A stretch of DNA of 64,000 bases from Hyalangium ruber (lineage in GTDB: Bacteria > Myxococcota > Myxococcia > Myxococcales > Myxococcaceae). The first letter of the stretch is position 1, and each line of letters begins with the position of its first letter. The translations under genes were made by a program, and so were the position numbers. Under the pieces are notes generated by a model. That model saw nothing but the letters and a program-made list of their open reading frames with translations. It was not told the origin of the DNA and ran no database searches. The stretch is from assembly GCF_034259325.1 (NCBI RefSeq), contig NZ_JAXIVS010000001.1, positions 1,116,001 to 1,180,000 on the forward strand, given 5' to 3'. Of this stretch, positions 49,606 through 54,694 are shown one piece after another.

Positions 49606-50736
49606 TCAGGGACACTCGGGGGATGGGAAGCACTCGCCCTGGGTGCATTGCTCATAGCGGAAGTGGATGCGCCGGGCGCAGGCCTTGCCGAACGTCGAGC
49701 CGTCTGAGTGCTGAGAGGGGCCCATGATGCATCCCTGAGCGCTCGTCGCGGGATCGATGCGCCAGAGCGCGAGTGTTCCTTGGTCTGAAGAGAGCTGAGT
49801 GCAACTCGCCGCCGGATACTTGAGTTTCGAGGCCTCGGCCTGGCAGTCGGCCAGGCTGCTCCAGAGGTTTTGGTTGCAGCTCTGGAGAGAGTAGAAGGAA
49901 TCGCAGCAGTACTCGTCCTGGAGGTTGAACAGGACATGTCCCGATTCGTGGAGGATGCTCTTGTCATATTGAATCTCCGAGGACATCCACTTGCCAGCAC
50001 GGCAGTCACGCAGCTCGGCCTGATGCAGGAGGACGAGGGCATCCCCGAACACATCCAGCTCGGCGAAGTTACCCGGCGCCGTGAAAAGGCAATCCGCCTC
50101 GTAGTCCCCATCCCACTTCGAGTAATAGAAATTGTAGAGGCCACGCCAGGTCTTGATTTCGCTGTATCTGAAATAAGTTCCCTGGATGAGGTTCTCCAGT
50201 TCGCTTCTGAAGGAAGCTTCGGCGATGTCCGTGTCCCGGATGAAGATCACATCGAGTTTTTCCGCCGTGCCTCCCTTGAGACGGATAGGGATGGGAGCTG
50301 TCCGCAGGGGGTACTCGCCCGCAGCGAACGAATAGGCCTCCATCTCGGAGCCCCCTCCCGTGTCGATCACCTTGGCGGTGAAGGTGATGAGCGAGTTGTC
50401 GGGGAACGCCGAAGTCATGGTGTGCATGCACTCCAACGACTTGACGCCCGAAGCCTGGCACGTCTTCACTTCCACGGGTGGACCATCCAGAACCTGGACA
50501 AGGTCTCCGGTAGCGGACTCCGAGAGTGTGAAGCGCTCGTAGGAGAGAATGACCCTGTCGATGTCCCCGGTCGCGACTGCCTTGAAAGTCACTGGCTCCG
50601 CGCTGGACGGATGCATCGGAGAATGGTGGGCGAACACGCTGGCGGATGCACAGCCCAGGGCTCCAGCCGCAACGGCAGACAGGAACGCATGGAAGAGAAG
50701 TCCCCGCGTGCCGCGGCTTGGACGCGCGCTCATCAT
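49606..50736 (-). CDS. M64-like zinc metalloprotease, lipoprotein signal
   Basis: This 376-residue secreted protein has a signal peptide ending in GALGC, probably a lipobox. A beta-rich N-terminal half and a catalytic region follow. The catalytic motif HESGHVLFNLQDEY (starting His263) resembles the HExxH...xDEY of M64 IgA-peptidase-like enzymes. The loop has paired cysteines (CCDS, SCNQN). ATG 50736 is chosen for its GGGGGG-containing site at a spacing of about seven. The gene lies 130 bases downstream of the NACHT gene on the same strand. Substrates are not known. Confidence 0.8.
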   Translation of the reverse strand: MMSARPSRGTRGLLFHAFLSAVAAGALGCASASVFAHHSPMHPSSAEPVTFKAVATGDIDRVILSYERFTLSESATGDLVQVLDGPPVEVKTCQASGVKSLECMHTMTSAFPDNSLITFTAKVIDTGGGSEMEAYSFAAGEYPLRTAPIPIRLKGGTAEKLDVIFIRDTDIAEASFRSELENLIQGTYFRYSEIKTWRGLYNFYYSKWDGDYEADCLFTAPGNFAELDVFGDALVLLHQAELRDCRAGKWMSSEIQYDKSILHESGHVLFNLQDEYCCDSFYSLQSCNQNLWSSLADCQAEASKLKYPAASCTQLSSDQGTLALWRIDPATSAQGCIMGPSQHSDGSTFGKACARRIHFRYEQCTQGECFPSPECP

Positions 50737-50866
50737 AAATAGTCCCCCCTGAAGCAGGCGGTCGCATAGTGGGCTTCCCAAGGAAGGACGCACAATCGGG
50801 ATGAGACCGAAGTGTGCAATCGGTTACCGCCCCCCAGGAGCGCTCCGGTGTCTTGATGTGGGCACA

Positions 50867-53800
50867 TCAATGCGGCGCTTCCGGGGACTCCGGAGGTACT
50901 CCCCCTTCGTCCACCCGTGGCTTCGACTCTCGGAAGGGCCAGACCAACGTGGCGATGCGCATGTAGAGCACGCCAAGCATGGGCAGCCCGGCCTGGGCGC
51001 AGACGGCGGTGGCAGTGCCCAGCACGTCCCGCGGTGCGAGGGCGGAGCTGTCCTGTAGGCGCTGATGAAACGGCCGCTGCAAGGGCGTGGGCACTGCCTG
51101 GATGATGTCTCTCTTCGTGAGCGAGTCATCGTAGAGACGGCTCCACTCCAGGAGTTGCCGCTGGAGTTCCCTGCGCAGGCGTTCCTCGGGGCCAAACACT
51201 TCCAGGCACATCTGGAACAGCTCGGACCCGGCCCCCGCGAGGAGCTCGGACTGGGCGCTGGTGAAGAGGGGATCCGCGGCGGCTCGCCAGAGGACCTCCC
51301 ACGTGGGCCTGGCGTGCTCCTGGGCGAAGAGACCACAGGCCGTGAGATAGCTCTGCATCGAGTCGTGGAAGAACCGCACTTGCAGGGGCGTCTGGCTCCG
51401 TTCGAGGGAGGGCTCGTCGGGGATCAGCACTCCCGCCTTCAAGAGCTTCTCGAGCTGGGGCCGCTCTGGGGCATTGCGGTAGCGCAACGCGCGGACCCCA
51501 TTGGCCCAATACGTCCTCAGGCAGAGTGCGCTGCTCCAGGCCAGCAGCTCACTGTCCTCGGCGTCGTGGAGGCTCGAATCCTGCCTTCGGAGCAGGCCGC
51601 GGAAGGCGGCCTCATAGAGTTCGGAGACATTACTGGCGGGACCGTGGCCGAACATGAGTGCGAGCCGGACGAGGATGGGCAGGTAGGTTCCGTCCGGTCC
51701 CCGGCACGCGGCCAGGAGTTCCGCGCGCAGCTCGGGCGCTCCCTCGGGGCGGTAAGCGTCGATGAACCAGCCCAACGTCTCTTCATCCAGGCGCCTGGGC
51801 TGAACGTGCAACCAGCGAGAGGAACTCTCGATGGCGTGCCGGAACCCATCATGCGGGCGGCTGGTACACAGCAGTCTCACGGTTCGTCCATACTTTCCAT
51901 CGAGGAAGCTCTGGATCGCTTCAGAGCTCAGCAAGGACTCCGTGAGTCCATCCACCACCAAGACATAGTCCCCTCGCTGCAGCATGGCTTCCTGGAGTTC
52001 GCAGAGGAGTGGATCGGCCTCCAGGGCCCGCTGCACTGCTTCGAGCAGCGTGCCACTCCGCGCGTCACAGAACACGGGCAGGGGGCCTGAAGGATCCTGC
52101 TCGAAGCGAAGGAGGAGCTGTCGTATGGACTCTCTCAGCAATGCGCTCTTGCCTCTGCCTCCAGGGGACTCGATGAGGACGCTGGCCTGCGGGTGCCACT
52201 CGGACACGGTGAGAAAGTCGCGGATGTGTGTCTCGGGGGAAGTCACAGGGCCCGGGGGACGCGGTGCCTCGGGTGAGTCAGGCTGACCGGGGTGGACTCC
52301 TCCTTCGCGCAGGTCCGCGGGGAGGGAGACGTAACGCTCGTTGTTGGCCTGGCGACGCTGGGACATGAGCTTGCGCCAACCATGCGCGACATAGTTGGCG
52401 AAGAGCCGCCGACGCATTCCTGGCACGGCGAGTGCCAGGGGCGTGAGCCATTGAAAGGGTTTGATCCCGGCAAGCAAGCGGAAGACAGGAGGAGAGAACG
52501 CTCCCAGGAGCAGTCCGAGGAGCACCTCCACGAAGAGCACCCCGACGAAGGTGGGGAAGTGGATCTTCAGGCGGTGGGCCACGTCGGAGAACGCCAGTCC
52601 GCTGCCCGCCAGGACATGGAGGGTCCATCCGATGAAGGGAAGCCAGCTCCGGGCGGACCGCGTGCGAGGCAGGAGGACCAGGGGGATCCCCAAGAGCATC
52701 GTCGCCATCACGCAGGCGATACCCGTGCGGAACCAGACCTGTTCGATGAGGGGAGTGCGGAAGGGGATGTGGTGGAGCACCAGGGTCGTGTCGATCCCCG
52801 TCTGGTCGTAATACCGGAAGACGATCCGGTAGAGGCCGTCCTGAACGAACAAGTCATCCAGGTTCCATTGGAGCTGGGGAGGAGGGGCCCCCTGGCTGAA
52901 CCGCCGGGTGCCGGAAGCGACGAGCCTGTGGGGAGTGCGCTCATCCCAGAGGGAGAACTCCAGAACTCCAGCGGCCTGGGTGGCGTGGTCACGGCCCGGC
53001 CATCTCAGCTCGATGCTGGAGGCTTCATTCTGTCGAAGGGGTGCGCGGATGTTGAGCCGCCCTTGGAGGGTGACGTCCCGCCCGTTCTTGACCTCGAGGG
53101 AGCCTCCCTCCAGCTTCAACGCCGCTCCTACTTCCGAGAGGGGAACATAGGCGAAGCTGGTGGGAATGCCCTGAATCCAGCCATGCAGACCATCTCCCGC
53201 TGGAAAGACGTAGGCGGCATTCGCTGACTTCAGCACCAGGTGCTCTTCGAGGTACCGCTCTTTTCGCAGGGAGATGAAGTAGAGATTGTTGTCCTGGGCC
53301 GACTGGAGCCAGGCCCCATCACCCGTGGGCTCTGCATCCGCTGATAAGAGCTCCAGACCCTTGAGGAGGGGGGTCACTTCAATAGAGCCATGAACCCCCC
53401 GGACATGGAAGGCCTGGGTCTCCCACAGCAAGATGTCATCGGAGCCCAGGAGAAACGGGAAGATGCCATGGAAGGCCTTGGGAGGGGCCTGGGCCCAGGG
53501 GAGCGCCTGGTCCTTGCTGCCGAGTACCGTTCCATTCTCGTCCAGGAAGCGAGCCTTGCCCGACTGCGTCATCAGCCAGACGAGGCCCGAGCGCGTGACG
53601 ACCGAGAGCACCTCTTCTCCGCGAAGCAGTGCCCCGCCGGGGAGTAGCGAGCGTCCCTCGATGTCCAGGAGGTAGACTCCTCCCGAGTCCGCCGTGTTGC
53701 TCCACGCTGCCGCGGCAACCCAGATGCGAGTGCCATCCGCGCTGGGGACGACCTGTCGGATCTCTTCACCCTTCAAAAGGAGAATGGGGGGCAGGCCCGA

Positions 53801-54694
53801 GGAGGAATCTGCTTGGACCCGATAAAGCTGCCGTGTGCCGACCGTTCCTGTCTGGGCAGGCGCGTCCATCACCACCCAGGCGCTCGTACCTTGGGGGCTG
53901 GGGAGCACCCAATGAATCTTTTCCGCCCTCAGAAGCGGTTTCCCGAGAGGTTTGGCGGCTTGGGCATCCACGAAGAAGAGCCGGTCCTTCGTCTTGAGCC
54001 AGGCCTGTTGTCCACCGTTGACAGGAATGACACGCAACGCATCCAAGTCGTTCGGGCTCCCCCATGTGTCGATGTCGAGCAGAACGGGTGGAGAGAGGCT
54101 CCCCGATGCATCGACTGTCGCAAGGAAGGACCGACCGGCCCGATGGAAGAGGACCCAGAGGTACGCGTGAGGCCTCCAATCCTGTGGAAGGGCTGAGTTC
54201 CAATACACGTTGTAGAGCGCTGCGGGGGGCTGCTCGCTGATGCGCTGGAGTGGATGTGCTTCGAGCACGACATGCCTTCTGGGAGGATCTTGCGTGGCAT
54301 CGATCAGGTACACCTGACCTGGGGCCTGCGTTTCGCTCGGATCCGCCGTGTGTCCGATGACCCAGGCTCTGCCAGGAACGTTCGTTCGGACCAGTTCCGA
54401 AGCGTGGATGCCCTTTTGGGGCCAGAGGCTGCCAGGGAAAAGGCGGTTTCCTCTGTGATCGATCATGGAGACAGCGCCCTGGTCCAGGACCCAGGCATGC
54501 GCGCCATCGCCGAAGGGAGCGAGGTGCGCTCGGGTGCTTGCCACGGGAACCGGCCAGAAGTTGCTGCCGCTCACCTCGGGCTTCACGTCCGCTACCTGTC
54601 GTCCGCAGGTGATCAGCCCACAGACTCCCGCCAGAAACAGCTGCGTCCAAAGAATGGACTTGCGGCCTGCTCTTCGTGCAGCGATTTCGGCCAT
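50867..54694 (-). CDS. membrane receptor with extracytoplasmic propeller and cytoplasmic NACHT NTPase
   Basis: This 1275-residue protein starts with a signal/anchor region whose hydrophobic stretch ends LITC (possible lipobox, Cys30). Residues 50-500 read as a beta-propeller-like sensor, 510-640 as an Ig-like region, and 651-676, 684-701 and 713-741 as membrane helices. Cytoplasmic residues 830-1130 form a NACHT-type STAND NTPase: Walker A SPGGRGKSALL (843-853, the first Gly of GxxGxGKS replaced by Ser), Walker B VLVVDGLTE (911-919) with the NACHT Asp-Gly-x-x-Glu, CTSRP (943-947), and a C-terminal winged-helix-like FFHDSMQSYLTA. An AAGGA site precedes ATG 54694. It probably senses an outside signal and oligomerises. 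The family is not otherwise known to me. Confidence 0.85.
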   Translation of the reverse strand: MAEIAARRAGRKSILWTQLFLAGVCGLITCGRQVADVKPEVSGSNFWPVPVASTRAHLAPFGDGAHAWVLDQGAVSMIDHRGNRLFPGSLWPQKGIHASELVRTNVPGRAWVIGHTADPSETQAPGQVYLIDATQDPPRRHVVLEAHPLQRISEQPPAALYNVYWNSALPQDWRPHAYLWVLFHRAGRSFLATVDASGSLSPPVLLDIDTWGSPNDLDALRVIPVNGGQQAWLKTKDRLFFVDAQAAKPLGKPLLRAEKIHWVLPSPQGTSAWVVMDAPAQTGTVGTRQLYRVQADSSSGLPPILLLKGEEIRQVVPSADGTRIWVAAAAWSNTADSGGVYLLDIEGRSLLPGGALLRGEEVLSVVTRSGLVWLMTQSGKARFLDENGTVLGSKDQALPWAQAPPKAFHGIFPFLLGSDDILLWETQAFHVRGVHGSIEVTPLLKGLELLSADAEPTGDGAWLQSAQDNNLYFISLRKERYLEEHLVLKSANAAYVFPAGDGLHGWIQGIPTSFAYVPLSEVGAALKLEGGSLEVKNGRDVTLQGRLNIRAPLRQNEASSIELRWPGRDHATQAAGVLEFSLWDERTPHRLVASGTRRFSQGAPPPQLQWNLDDLFVQDGLYRIVFRYYDQTGIDTTLVLHHIPFRTPLIEQVWFRTGIACVMATMLLGIPLVLLPRTRSARSWLPFIGWTLHVLAGSGLAFSDVAHRLKIHFPTFVGVLFVEVLLGLLLGAFSPPVFRLLAGIKPFQWLTPLALAVPGMRRRLFANYVAHGWRKLMSQRRQANNERYVSLPADLREGGVHPGQPDSPEAPRPPGPVTSPETHIRDFLTVSEWHPQASVLIESPGGRGKSALLRESIRQLLLRFEQDPSGPLPVFCDARSGTLLEAVQRALEADPLLCELQEAMLQRGDYVLVVDGLTESLLSSEAIQSFLDGKYGRTVRLLCTSRPHDGFRHAIESSSRWLHVQPRRLDEETLGWFIDAYRPEGAPELRAELLAACRGPDGTYLPILVRLALMFGHGPASNVSELYEAAFRGLLRRQDSSLHDAEDSELLAWSSALCLRTYWANGVRALRYRNAPERPQLEKLLKAGVLIPDEPSLERSQTPLQVRFFHDSMQSYLTACGLFAQEHARPTWEVLWRAAADPLFTSAQSELLAGAGSELFQMCLEVFGPEERLRRELQRQLLEWSRLYDDSLTKRDIIQAVPTPLQRPFHQRLQDSSALAPRDVLGTATAVCAQAGLPMLGVLYMRIATLVWPFRESKPRVDEGGVPPESPEAPH

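Follow-up and report, generated by a model that had tools for sequence, protein, structure and literature searches.

A putative transmembrane receptor joining an exported beta-propeller to a divergent NACHT switch in Hyalangium ruber and its relatives

Introduction

Animal NLRs such as NLRC4, NOD2 and NLRP3 are soluble proteins with an N-terminal effector and a C-terminal leucine-rich-repeat (LRR) sensor. The histidine of their winged-helix FxH motif contacts the beta-phosphate of ADP, and NLR-type switches are usually regarded as guards of the cytosol. Hybrid two-component sensors are built from periplasmic propellers, a Y_Y_Y domain, a membrane helix and a histidine kinase. Here we describe a protein with features of both, encoded in a 64,000-nucleotide stretch of the myxobacterium Hyalangium ruber (assembly GCF_034259325.1, contig NZ_JAXIVS010000001.1, positions 1,116,001 to 1,180,000; the whole stretch is called the window below) by a minus-strand open reading frame (ORF) at positions 50867-54694. 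We propose that it is a single-polypeptide transmembrane receptor that works from the outside in through an NLR-type switch, a reading to which we assign a probability of roughly 0.6.

According to the available sections of PMC10907252, antiviral STAND proteins usually combine an N-terminal effector with a C-terminal recognition part. Clade 14 bNACHTs lack a discernible effector and end in a short C-terminal domain only, as described in the accessible part of PMC12169576. In these same sections, neither source mentions membrane helices or an exported domain for bNACHT or Avs proteins. Targets of a diversity-generating retroelement (DGR) in Thiohalocapsa PB-PSB1 combine NACHT and lectin (CLec) domains, with a predicted location in the cytoplasm for one and in the periplasm for the other (PMC10907252, same sections).

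The H. ruber protein resembles the animal NLRs in the arrangement and fold of its cytoplasmic half (nucleotide-binding domain, NBD; helical domain 1, HD1; winged-helix domain, WHD; helical domain 2, HD2) and in its winged-helix FxH motif, but its candidate sensor occupies the N-terminus on the outer side of the membrane, and there is no LRR behind the NACHT domain. With bNACHT and Avs proteins it shares the NACHT/STAND switch, and Avs4 is among the structural matches of its core. Those proteins act against phage; ours has no match in PADLOC. It also lacks their large variable C-terminal sensor, since only about 160 residues, conserved like the NTPase, follow the FxH motif. Such a short C-terminus does not exclude every bNACHT, because those of clade 14 are short too in the part of PMC12169576 cited above. 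No N-terminal effector domain was recognised; the membrane helices could serve as one.

The order of exported propeller, small beta domain, membrane helices and cytoplasmic output is that of the hybrid two-component sensors, yet here the output is a NACHT domain, the helices are three, and Pfam matched neither a Y_Y_Y domain in the 19 members of the family nor any kinase family in these or the window protein. The PB-PSB1 targets are likewise NACHT proteins, one of them predicted outside the cytoplasm; in our protein, by contrast, the NACHT domain is predicted inside and the propeller outside. We did not find an exported N-terminal sensor joined to membrane helices and a cytoplasmic NACHT domain in the literature searched, which mostly excluded subscription papers, and the available sections of PMC10907252, PMC7159879, PMC12169576 and PMC8195603 do not describe it. 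Against that literature, the NLR/NACHT switch is known, and a sensor placed across the membrane from it would be new.

Results

Gene, architecture and family

The ORF starts with ATG just 3' of an AAGGA and encodes 1275 amino acids. Its GC content at the three codon positions (0.684/0.479/0.766) is typical of a genuine high-GC gene; overall it amounts to 64.3%, versus 69.1% for the window. We divided the gene as follows:

50867..54694, minus strand: whole gene, 1275 amino acids, ATG to stop (ORF, family search, alignment)
54602..54694, minus strand: export signal, residues 1-31, with positive n-region and hydrophobic stretch 13-31 (hydropathy, charge)
53135..54562, minus strand: predicted beta-propeller, residues 45-520, probably 8-10 blades, presumed sensor (model, fold match, motif spacing)
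52757..53116, minus strand: predicted eight-stranded, membrane-adjacent beta domain, residues 527-646 (model, low confidence, block pLDDT 32-66)
52670..52750, minus strand: membrane helix 1, residues 649-675, out to in (hydropathy, model)
52577..52654, minus strand: membrane helix 2, residues 681-706, weak hydropathy, in to out (hydropathy, model, charge)
52490..52558, minus strand: membrane helix 3, residues 713-735, out to in (hydropathy, model)
52205..52489, minus strand: positively charged juxtamembrane helices and variable linker, residues 736-830 (alignment, model, charge)
51695..52204, minus strand: NACHT nucleotide-binding domain, residues 831-1000 (alignment, model, fold and profile-profile matches)
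52145..52168, minus strand: Walker A SPGGRGKS, residues 843-850, K849 and S850 invariant (alignment)
51938..51964, minus strand: Walker B VLVVDGLTE, residues 911-919, D915 and E919 invariant (alignment)
51854..51868, minus strand: sensor-1 CTSRP, residues 943-947, R946 invariant (alignment)
51350..51694, minus strand: helical domain 1 and winged helix, residues 1001-1115 (model, fold match)
51338..51373, minus strand: FxHxxxQEY-type motif of NACHT winged helices, FFHDSMQSYLTA, residues 1108-1119, H1110 invariant (alignment)
50930..51349, minus strand: conserved all-helical tail, residues 1116-1255, candidate partner surface (alignment, model)

A protein search of the class found 22 matches, spread over 15 of its 147 genomes (own genome counted). 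Nineteen, including the window's, are full length and were aligned; the other three, namely two halves of a copy with a broken frame (G014) and one remnant (G114), were left out. For L005 and L016 a stop was counted inside the matched frame, and the ORFs used for both are uninterrupted. All 15 genomes belong to the window's own family, with members in Hyalangium versicolor, Archangium violaceum and Archangium lansinium. The 19 proteins fall into two clades, with 45-59% (8 members) or 32-34% (10 members) identity to the window protein, and three genomes carry both. The ratio of nonsynonymous to synonymous substitution rates (dN/dS) was below 1 in every domain of all 10 close pairs tested, which are not independent of one another. 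An artefact or chance ORF is ruled out by this purifying selection and by the 18 further full-length members, which also bear out the ORF of the first-pass annotation and the recurrence of its architecture.

Beyond the class, a profile of the membrane-NACHT part found matches in 17 of the 195 phylum genomes searched; in two, these were weak and lay in NACHT proteins of another kind. GTDB species genomes were further scanned for two conserved peptides; the spread obtained by this pattern-limited search is a lower bound. It yielded L026, a full-length relative of 1213 amino acids in a Thermoanaerobaculia metagenome-assembled genome (MAG). A second far relative, L028 from a Phycisphaerales MAG, comprises the core only, behind an 840-residue ORF with a signal-like start. 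Both come from phyla other than Myxococcota; relatives occurred in 1 of 294 sampled genomes of L028's phylum and 1 of 297 of L026's, each time the genome already known. No relatives were found among the plasmids, phages and viral contigs searched.

Two incomplete copies deserve mention. The frame-broken one, a second copy in its genome (L063:7330-11075 in G014:C10, with L007 and L009), loses its frame in the loop that connects membrane helices 1 and 2. A 679-residue ORF with the sensor and helix 1 is left, then a 561-residue ORF with helices 2-3 and the NACHT domain; the copy is either in decay or naturally divided into sensor and switch. The remnant (L021/L074 in G114:C57) retains the C-terminal part only (query residues 1039-1259), adjoins a PAS histidine kinase gene and is a sign of copy turnover.

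The cytoplasmic half is a divergent NACHT domain

From SPGGRGKSALL, VLVVDGLTE and CTSRP, the first-pass annotation had read a NACHT NTPase. The motifs were quoted correctly, and GGRGKSALLR, DGLTES and the arginine of TSRP do not vary among the 19 members; nor do K849, S850, D915, E919, R946 and H1110. The far relatives also keep Walker A, Walker B and the sensor-1 arginine, with the variants GGSGKS (L028), DGISE (L026) and DGLSE (L028).

An AlphaFold2 model of the core, made from 6 sequences (mean predicted local distance difference test, pLDDT, 74.6; predicted TM-score, pTM, 0.63), shows a P-loop domain, a winged helix and a helical tail. Its best Foldseek matches in the PDB were NLRC4 (E=2.2e-9) and NOD2 (2.7e-9), then NLRP3 and NLRP9, with the STAND proteins Avs4 (1.2e-5) and Apaf-1 (2.3e-5) lower down. 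The first 38 rows are NLR entries except Avs4 at rank 35 (8h93 being titled only SCMC complex); by title, the best 50 matches comprise 46 NLR or other STAND chains and 4 ORC/OCCM or FtsH chains. VIA-align ranked NLRP3 NACHT structures first (Z 12.4, root-mean-square deviation (rmsd) 7.0, 373 aligned), on a scale where the tool gives Z 7-8 as typical of models without clear match. The check by structure model that had been proposed for the NACHT domain therefore returned a predicted NLR-type NACHT fold with the NBD-HD1-WHD-HD2 arrangement of that clade.

Profile-profile comparison agreed with the model. A profile of 14 cores aligned with 13 NACHT domains at a probability of 97.7 (E=1.3e-12, 317 columns), versus E=0.34-0.81 for five column shuffles. 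The 13 domains were picked by Pfam alone, which leaves out L044 and L045, found by the family's own profile; with these two added, E was 1.2e-13. An AAA_16 set reached 1.2e-5, aligned from Walker B onward only with its P-loop unaligned. Four NACHTs selected for the FxH motif gave 7.3e-17, a value biased by that selection and not used as support.

The winged-helix motif FFHDSMQSYLTA has the FxHxxxQEY-type form of the NACHT/NLR clade: FFHDSMQSYL is similar to FAHLSFQEYL, FLHLTFQEYF and FGHKTFREYL of NACHTs in the searched genomes. The pattern was present in 5 of 16 NACHT-hit domains (two of the five are near-identical, and the 16 include three that were too short or misread) and in 0 of the 6 AAA_16 domains displayed (15 were taken).

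Sequence searches with the whole protein in Pfam (0 families), PADLOC, NCBIfam and the PDB gave no match, so that a family known by sequence was rejected for the protein alone. PDB profile searches by sequence found no NLR. Over the 19 members, Pfam gave sub-threshold scores only, namely NACHT in 3 (best 0.063) and nSTAND5 in 4 (best 0.062), the best of all being PDZ_6 (0.016) and AAA_35 (0.021). The link to NLRs thus comes from fold comparison and profile-profile comparison: by these two, and not by the curated Pfam model, the cytoplasmic part is a divergent NACHT.

The window genome encodes other proteins of this kind. At least 8 Pfam NACHT matches at E <=0.001 were found (150 scored of 303 candidates), 4 of them above cut-off; the receptor gene is absent from these 8. 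The 122 AAA_16 matches of the same genome (G000), the best of which mostly lie in frames 1500-2100 residues long, look like a large repertoire of STAND-like or kinase-linked regulators. Elsewhere, L044 and L045 (G111, G119) are open frames of 1475 residues. L044 holds TIR and NACHT by Pfam and, read by eye, hydrophobic stretches near its end; L045 is near-identical by eye. They likely represent a conventional TIR-NACHT conflict protein in two relatives. Their matches to the family profile (E=2.3e-7 and 2.7e-7) were rejected, and these long NACHT proteins of another kind were left uncounted.

A predicted exported propeller on membrane helices

The proposed signal or anchor is supported by a positive n-region (mean net charge +2.7 in 19 members) and by a hydrophobic N-terminal stretch above the 1.3 threshold in 17 of 20 proteins (below it in L003, L019 and L026). 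In lipoproteins the signal ends in a lipobox. Such an end (xGC or xAC) is seen in 8 of 10 members of the second clade, LIAC occurs in two of the first, and the window protein has the non-canonical LITC. Lipid anchoring of the propeller domain, if real, appears not to be conserved, because L002, L011, L005 and L006 (4 of 19 members) carry no Cys at this place.

The part behind the signal contains 10 motifs of the type small/aliphatic-W-hydrophobic, spaced 38-69 residues apart. The pattern was chosen after the sequence had been seen; 10 motifs were reached in 0 of 5000 shuffles, and an equally even spacing in 1 of 20000 random placements. In an AlphaFold2 model from 5 sequences (pLDDT 65.0, pTM 0.60), the propeller region is nearly all-beta. 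VIA-align aligned 957 PDB chains with this model, 849 at Z >=8, led by an eIF3 chain (Z 15.0, rmsd 4.9, 351 aligned, range 43-501) with eIF2A and designed propellers close behind; Foldseek found 665 matches at E <=0.001 (best 4.6e-11). The propeller-like periodicity noted at first is therefore matched by the motif spacing and by an all-beta model with propeller matches over residues 43-501, and the model check put forward for it points to a propeller fold. Residues 527-646 were modelled, at low confidence, as eight strands.

Hydropathy gave two strong membrane helices (657-675 and 715-733). The middle one (about 685-705) scores 1.31-1.65 in 12 of 20 proteins; the other 8, the window's among them, stay below 1.3, and in the window protein the cytoplasmic stretch 1224-1242 scores higher than this helix (1.47). 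The middle helix is helical in the model and conserved among members. Of the three helices first annotated, two are thus strong, and the middle one is under threshold in the window protein. Mean net loop charges are +3.1 between helices 1 and 2, +1.1 between 2 and 3, and +7.6 after helix 3. Residues 45-648 contain 0-1 cysteines in all 19 members, and the window protein's propeller contains none. Loop charges and scarce cysteines are consistent with a propeller outside and a NACHT domain inside; provided that the middle helix spans, the charge bias would place the P-loop in the cytoplasm, as the first-pass annotation required.

The outer part diverges and the core does not

Propeller (23%) and beta domain (26%) show the lowest identity between the clades, followed by the linker (32%), membrane helices (43%), NBD (44%), tail (47%) and HD1-WHD (49%). 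The propeller dN/dS in the 10 close pairs was 0.32-0.50, the highest of all domains in 5.

Upstream parts differ among far relatives. That of L026 is weakly similar to the sensor (hhalign probability 58.8, E=9.4e-5; reversed 0.43), and the upstream ORF of L028 is unrelated to it (E=0.42; reversed control 0.43) and, judged by composition, more helical. Its identification as HEAT repeats was rejected, as only sub-threshold HEAT and importin scores and no PDB match were obtained.

Genomic neighbourhood

Recurring neighbours in the 22 neighbourhoods (clusters 2-8 and others) are confined to near relatives. In these (mostly genus g8), the gene adjoins the same proteins, which we read as acetyltransferase-like and 5'-3' exonuclease-like. 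None of 11 window ORFs matched the relatives' 22 neighbourhoods at 1e-5. PAS/GAF histidine kinases, which are abundant in myxobacteria, account for 17 genes in 12 of the 22 (about 11-21 kb each; L026, L058, L060-L062, L065, L068-L071, L073 and L074), a count without background rate. They vary in architecture and place, and their cluster was joined by single linkage; Pfam, run on 8 of the 17, identified all 8 as kinases.

Among the 10 ORFs flanking the window gene, Pfam matched two DUF4139/DUF4140 proteins, a zinc-ribbon protein (below cut-off) and a beta-lactamase-family protein. The ORF 49606-50793, also on the minus strand, follows the receptor gene after 73 bases and could be co-transcribed with it. 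Its product looks exported and has, by eye, an HExxH-like motif (HESGHVLFNLQDEY) without Pfam match; no match was found near the relatives' genes.

Discussion

We identified a divergent propeller behind an export signal, membrane helices and a NACHT fold with intact NTP-binding motifs, as judged from sequence, profiles and models, in a gene under purifying selection whose core recurs beside an unrelated upstream part. The outside-in receptor that we propose could work as follows. The propeller, exported across the inner membrane, would bind a ligand present in the periplasm or brought there, and the beta domain and three helices would relay the change inward. The cytoplasmic NACHT domain, held closed on ADP by the winged-helix histidine H1110, would open, swap ADP for ATP and, on the membrane's inner face, assemble into a ring or cluster. 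The assembly, probably through the helical tail 1116-1255, would then recruit or activate a cytoplasmic partner encoded elsewhere in the genome. We infer nucleotide switching, oligomerisation and direction of signalling from NLR biology.

More tentatively, at slightly less than even odds, the family may belong to a class of bacterial transmembrane NLRs in which a conserved core of three helices and NACHT domain is combined with differing outer sensors, and extracellular cues trigger NLR-type assembly. These sensors would be a propeller in myxobacteria, a propeller-like part in the Thermoanaerobaculia MAG and an unrelated, perhaps helical domain in the planctomycete.

Several observations weigh against the proposed receptor. 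Membrane helix 2 is weak in hydropathy, and with two spanning helices only, the P-loop would lie outside. The core alone scored 12.9 bits against the Pfam NACHT (PF05729) cut-off of 26.7, which is why we call the domain divergent; compared singly, only 3 of the 13 NACHT domains matched strongly (E=2e-8 to 4e-8), another 3 were intermediate at 7e-5 to 6e-6, and the remaining 7 matched weakly, no better than 0.003. Other AAA+ chains align with the core as well (Cdc6/Orc1 at Z 10.1 and NSF at 9.5, over about 175-225 residues), and its TM-score by query length is at most 0.34 among the 50 best Foldseek matches. The two models, built from alignments of 5 and 6 sequences, reach middling confidence (pLDDT 65.0 and 74.6). 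For the sensor, TM-scores by query length are only 0.15-0.30 in the 50 of 665 Foldseek matches listed; because they are so low, the exact blade geometry is not clear in the model, while the propeller fold class is. Another domain exceeded the propeller in dN/dS in the other 5 of 10 close pairs (for example the linker in L014/L019 with 0.89, the beta domain in L004/L005 with 0.51 and the tail in L002/L011 with 0.37), and propellers diverge fast in any case. Two undetermined bases lie between the upstream ORF and the core of L028, so their fusion is not certain. Finally, no ligand, partner or output could be identified from sequence, models or neighbourhoods: Pfam, PADLOC and NCBIfam recognised no effector domain, no neighbour holds a constant place across the family's 22 neighbourhoods, and PADLOC matched none of the 10 ORFs flanking the window gene, which therefore does not lie in a defence-island setting of the bNACHT/Avs type.

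We nevertheless prefer an outside-in receptor because conservation is seen in the C-terminal part but not in the outer one, unlike in the usual antiviral STANDs. The main rival reverses the signal. In it, NACHT domain and tail would sense a cytosolic trigger such as a phage product, oligomerisation would cluster the membrane helices into a pore, and the propeller would anchor or shield the protein outside. In such an inside-out death effector the helices would sit where NLRs carry their N-terminal effector. If the N-terminal membrane part counts as effector, the effector-NACHT order is canonical (a tripartite order is described in the available part of PMC10907252); no other effector domain was recognised, and the helices come close to the NTPase in conservation (43% vs 44%). 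We consider this reading unlikely, yet to be taken seriously: one would expect a variable C-terminal sensor, whereas the tail, its sole cytoplasmic candidate, is conserved like the NTPase (47%), some 470 residues of propeller make an odd pore cap, and we found neither PADLOC matches among the 10 neighbours nor plasmid or phage copies.

That the protein is a resident regulator outside any conflict, its NACHT domain controlling for instance envelope stress or fruiting, perhaps alongside two-component signalling, appears improbable to us. Its patchy spread over 15 of the 147 class genomes, the second copies that several genomes carry, the frame-broken copy and the remnant, and 11 window ORFs unmatched near its relatives give it the look of a variable accessory gene, although selection constrains all domains in the 10 pairs, the same ordinary genes adjoin it in near relatives, and histidine kinases of varying architecture and place occur in 12 of the 22 neighbourhoods. 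We regard a wrong topology, with only two spanning helices or an internal N-terminal part and hence a peripheral or cytoplasmic NACHT domain, as very improbable. It would draw on the low-scoring middle helix of 8 of the 20 proteins and on the window protein's higher-scoring cytoplasmic stretch, but the loop charges fit three helices and an exported N-terminal domain, the propeller part is nearly free of cysteine, and the model has helices at all three places. The divergence pattern and the exchanged upstream part favour the receptor for an external cue that the first-pass annotation had suggested. There is support for its architecture of propeller, helices and NACHT domain, and a receptor role would explain the findings best, with the membrane effector still standing as an unlikely competitor.

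If the outside-in reading is true, a NACHT switch can be driven across a membrane by an exported sensor within one polypeptide, and extracellular cues would lead to NLR assembly, much as Toll-like receptors and plant receptor kinases couple them to other outputs. With sensor and switch separable in one gene, the receptor would be a simple system for studying how a membrane helix opens an NLR, and the homologues in Archangium and Hyalangium make it testable. In a group known for predation and social life, bacterial NLR biology would gain an arm that senses the outside.

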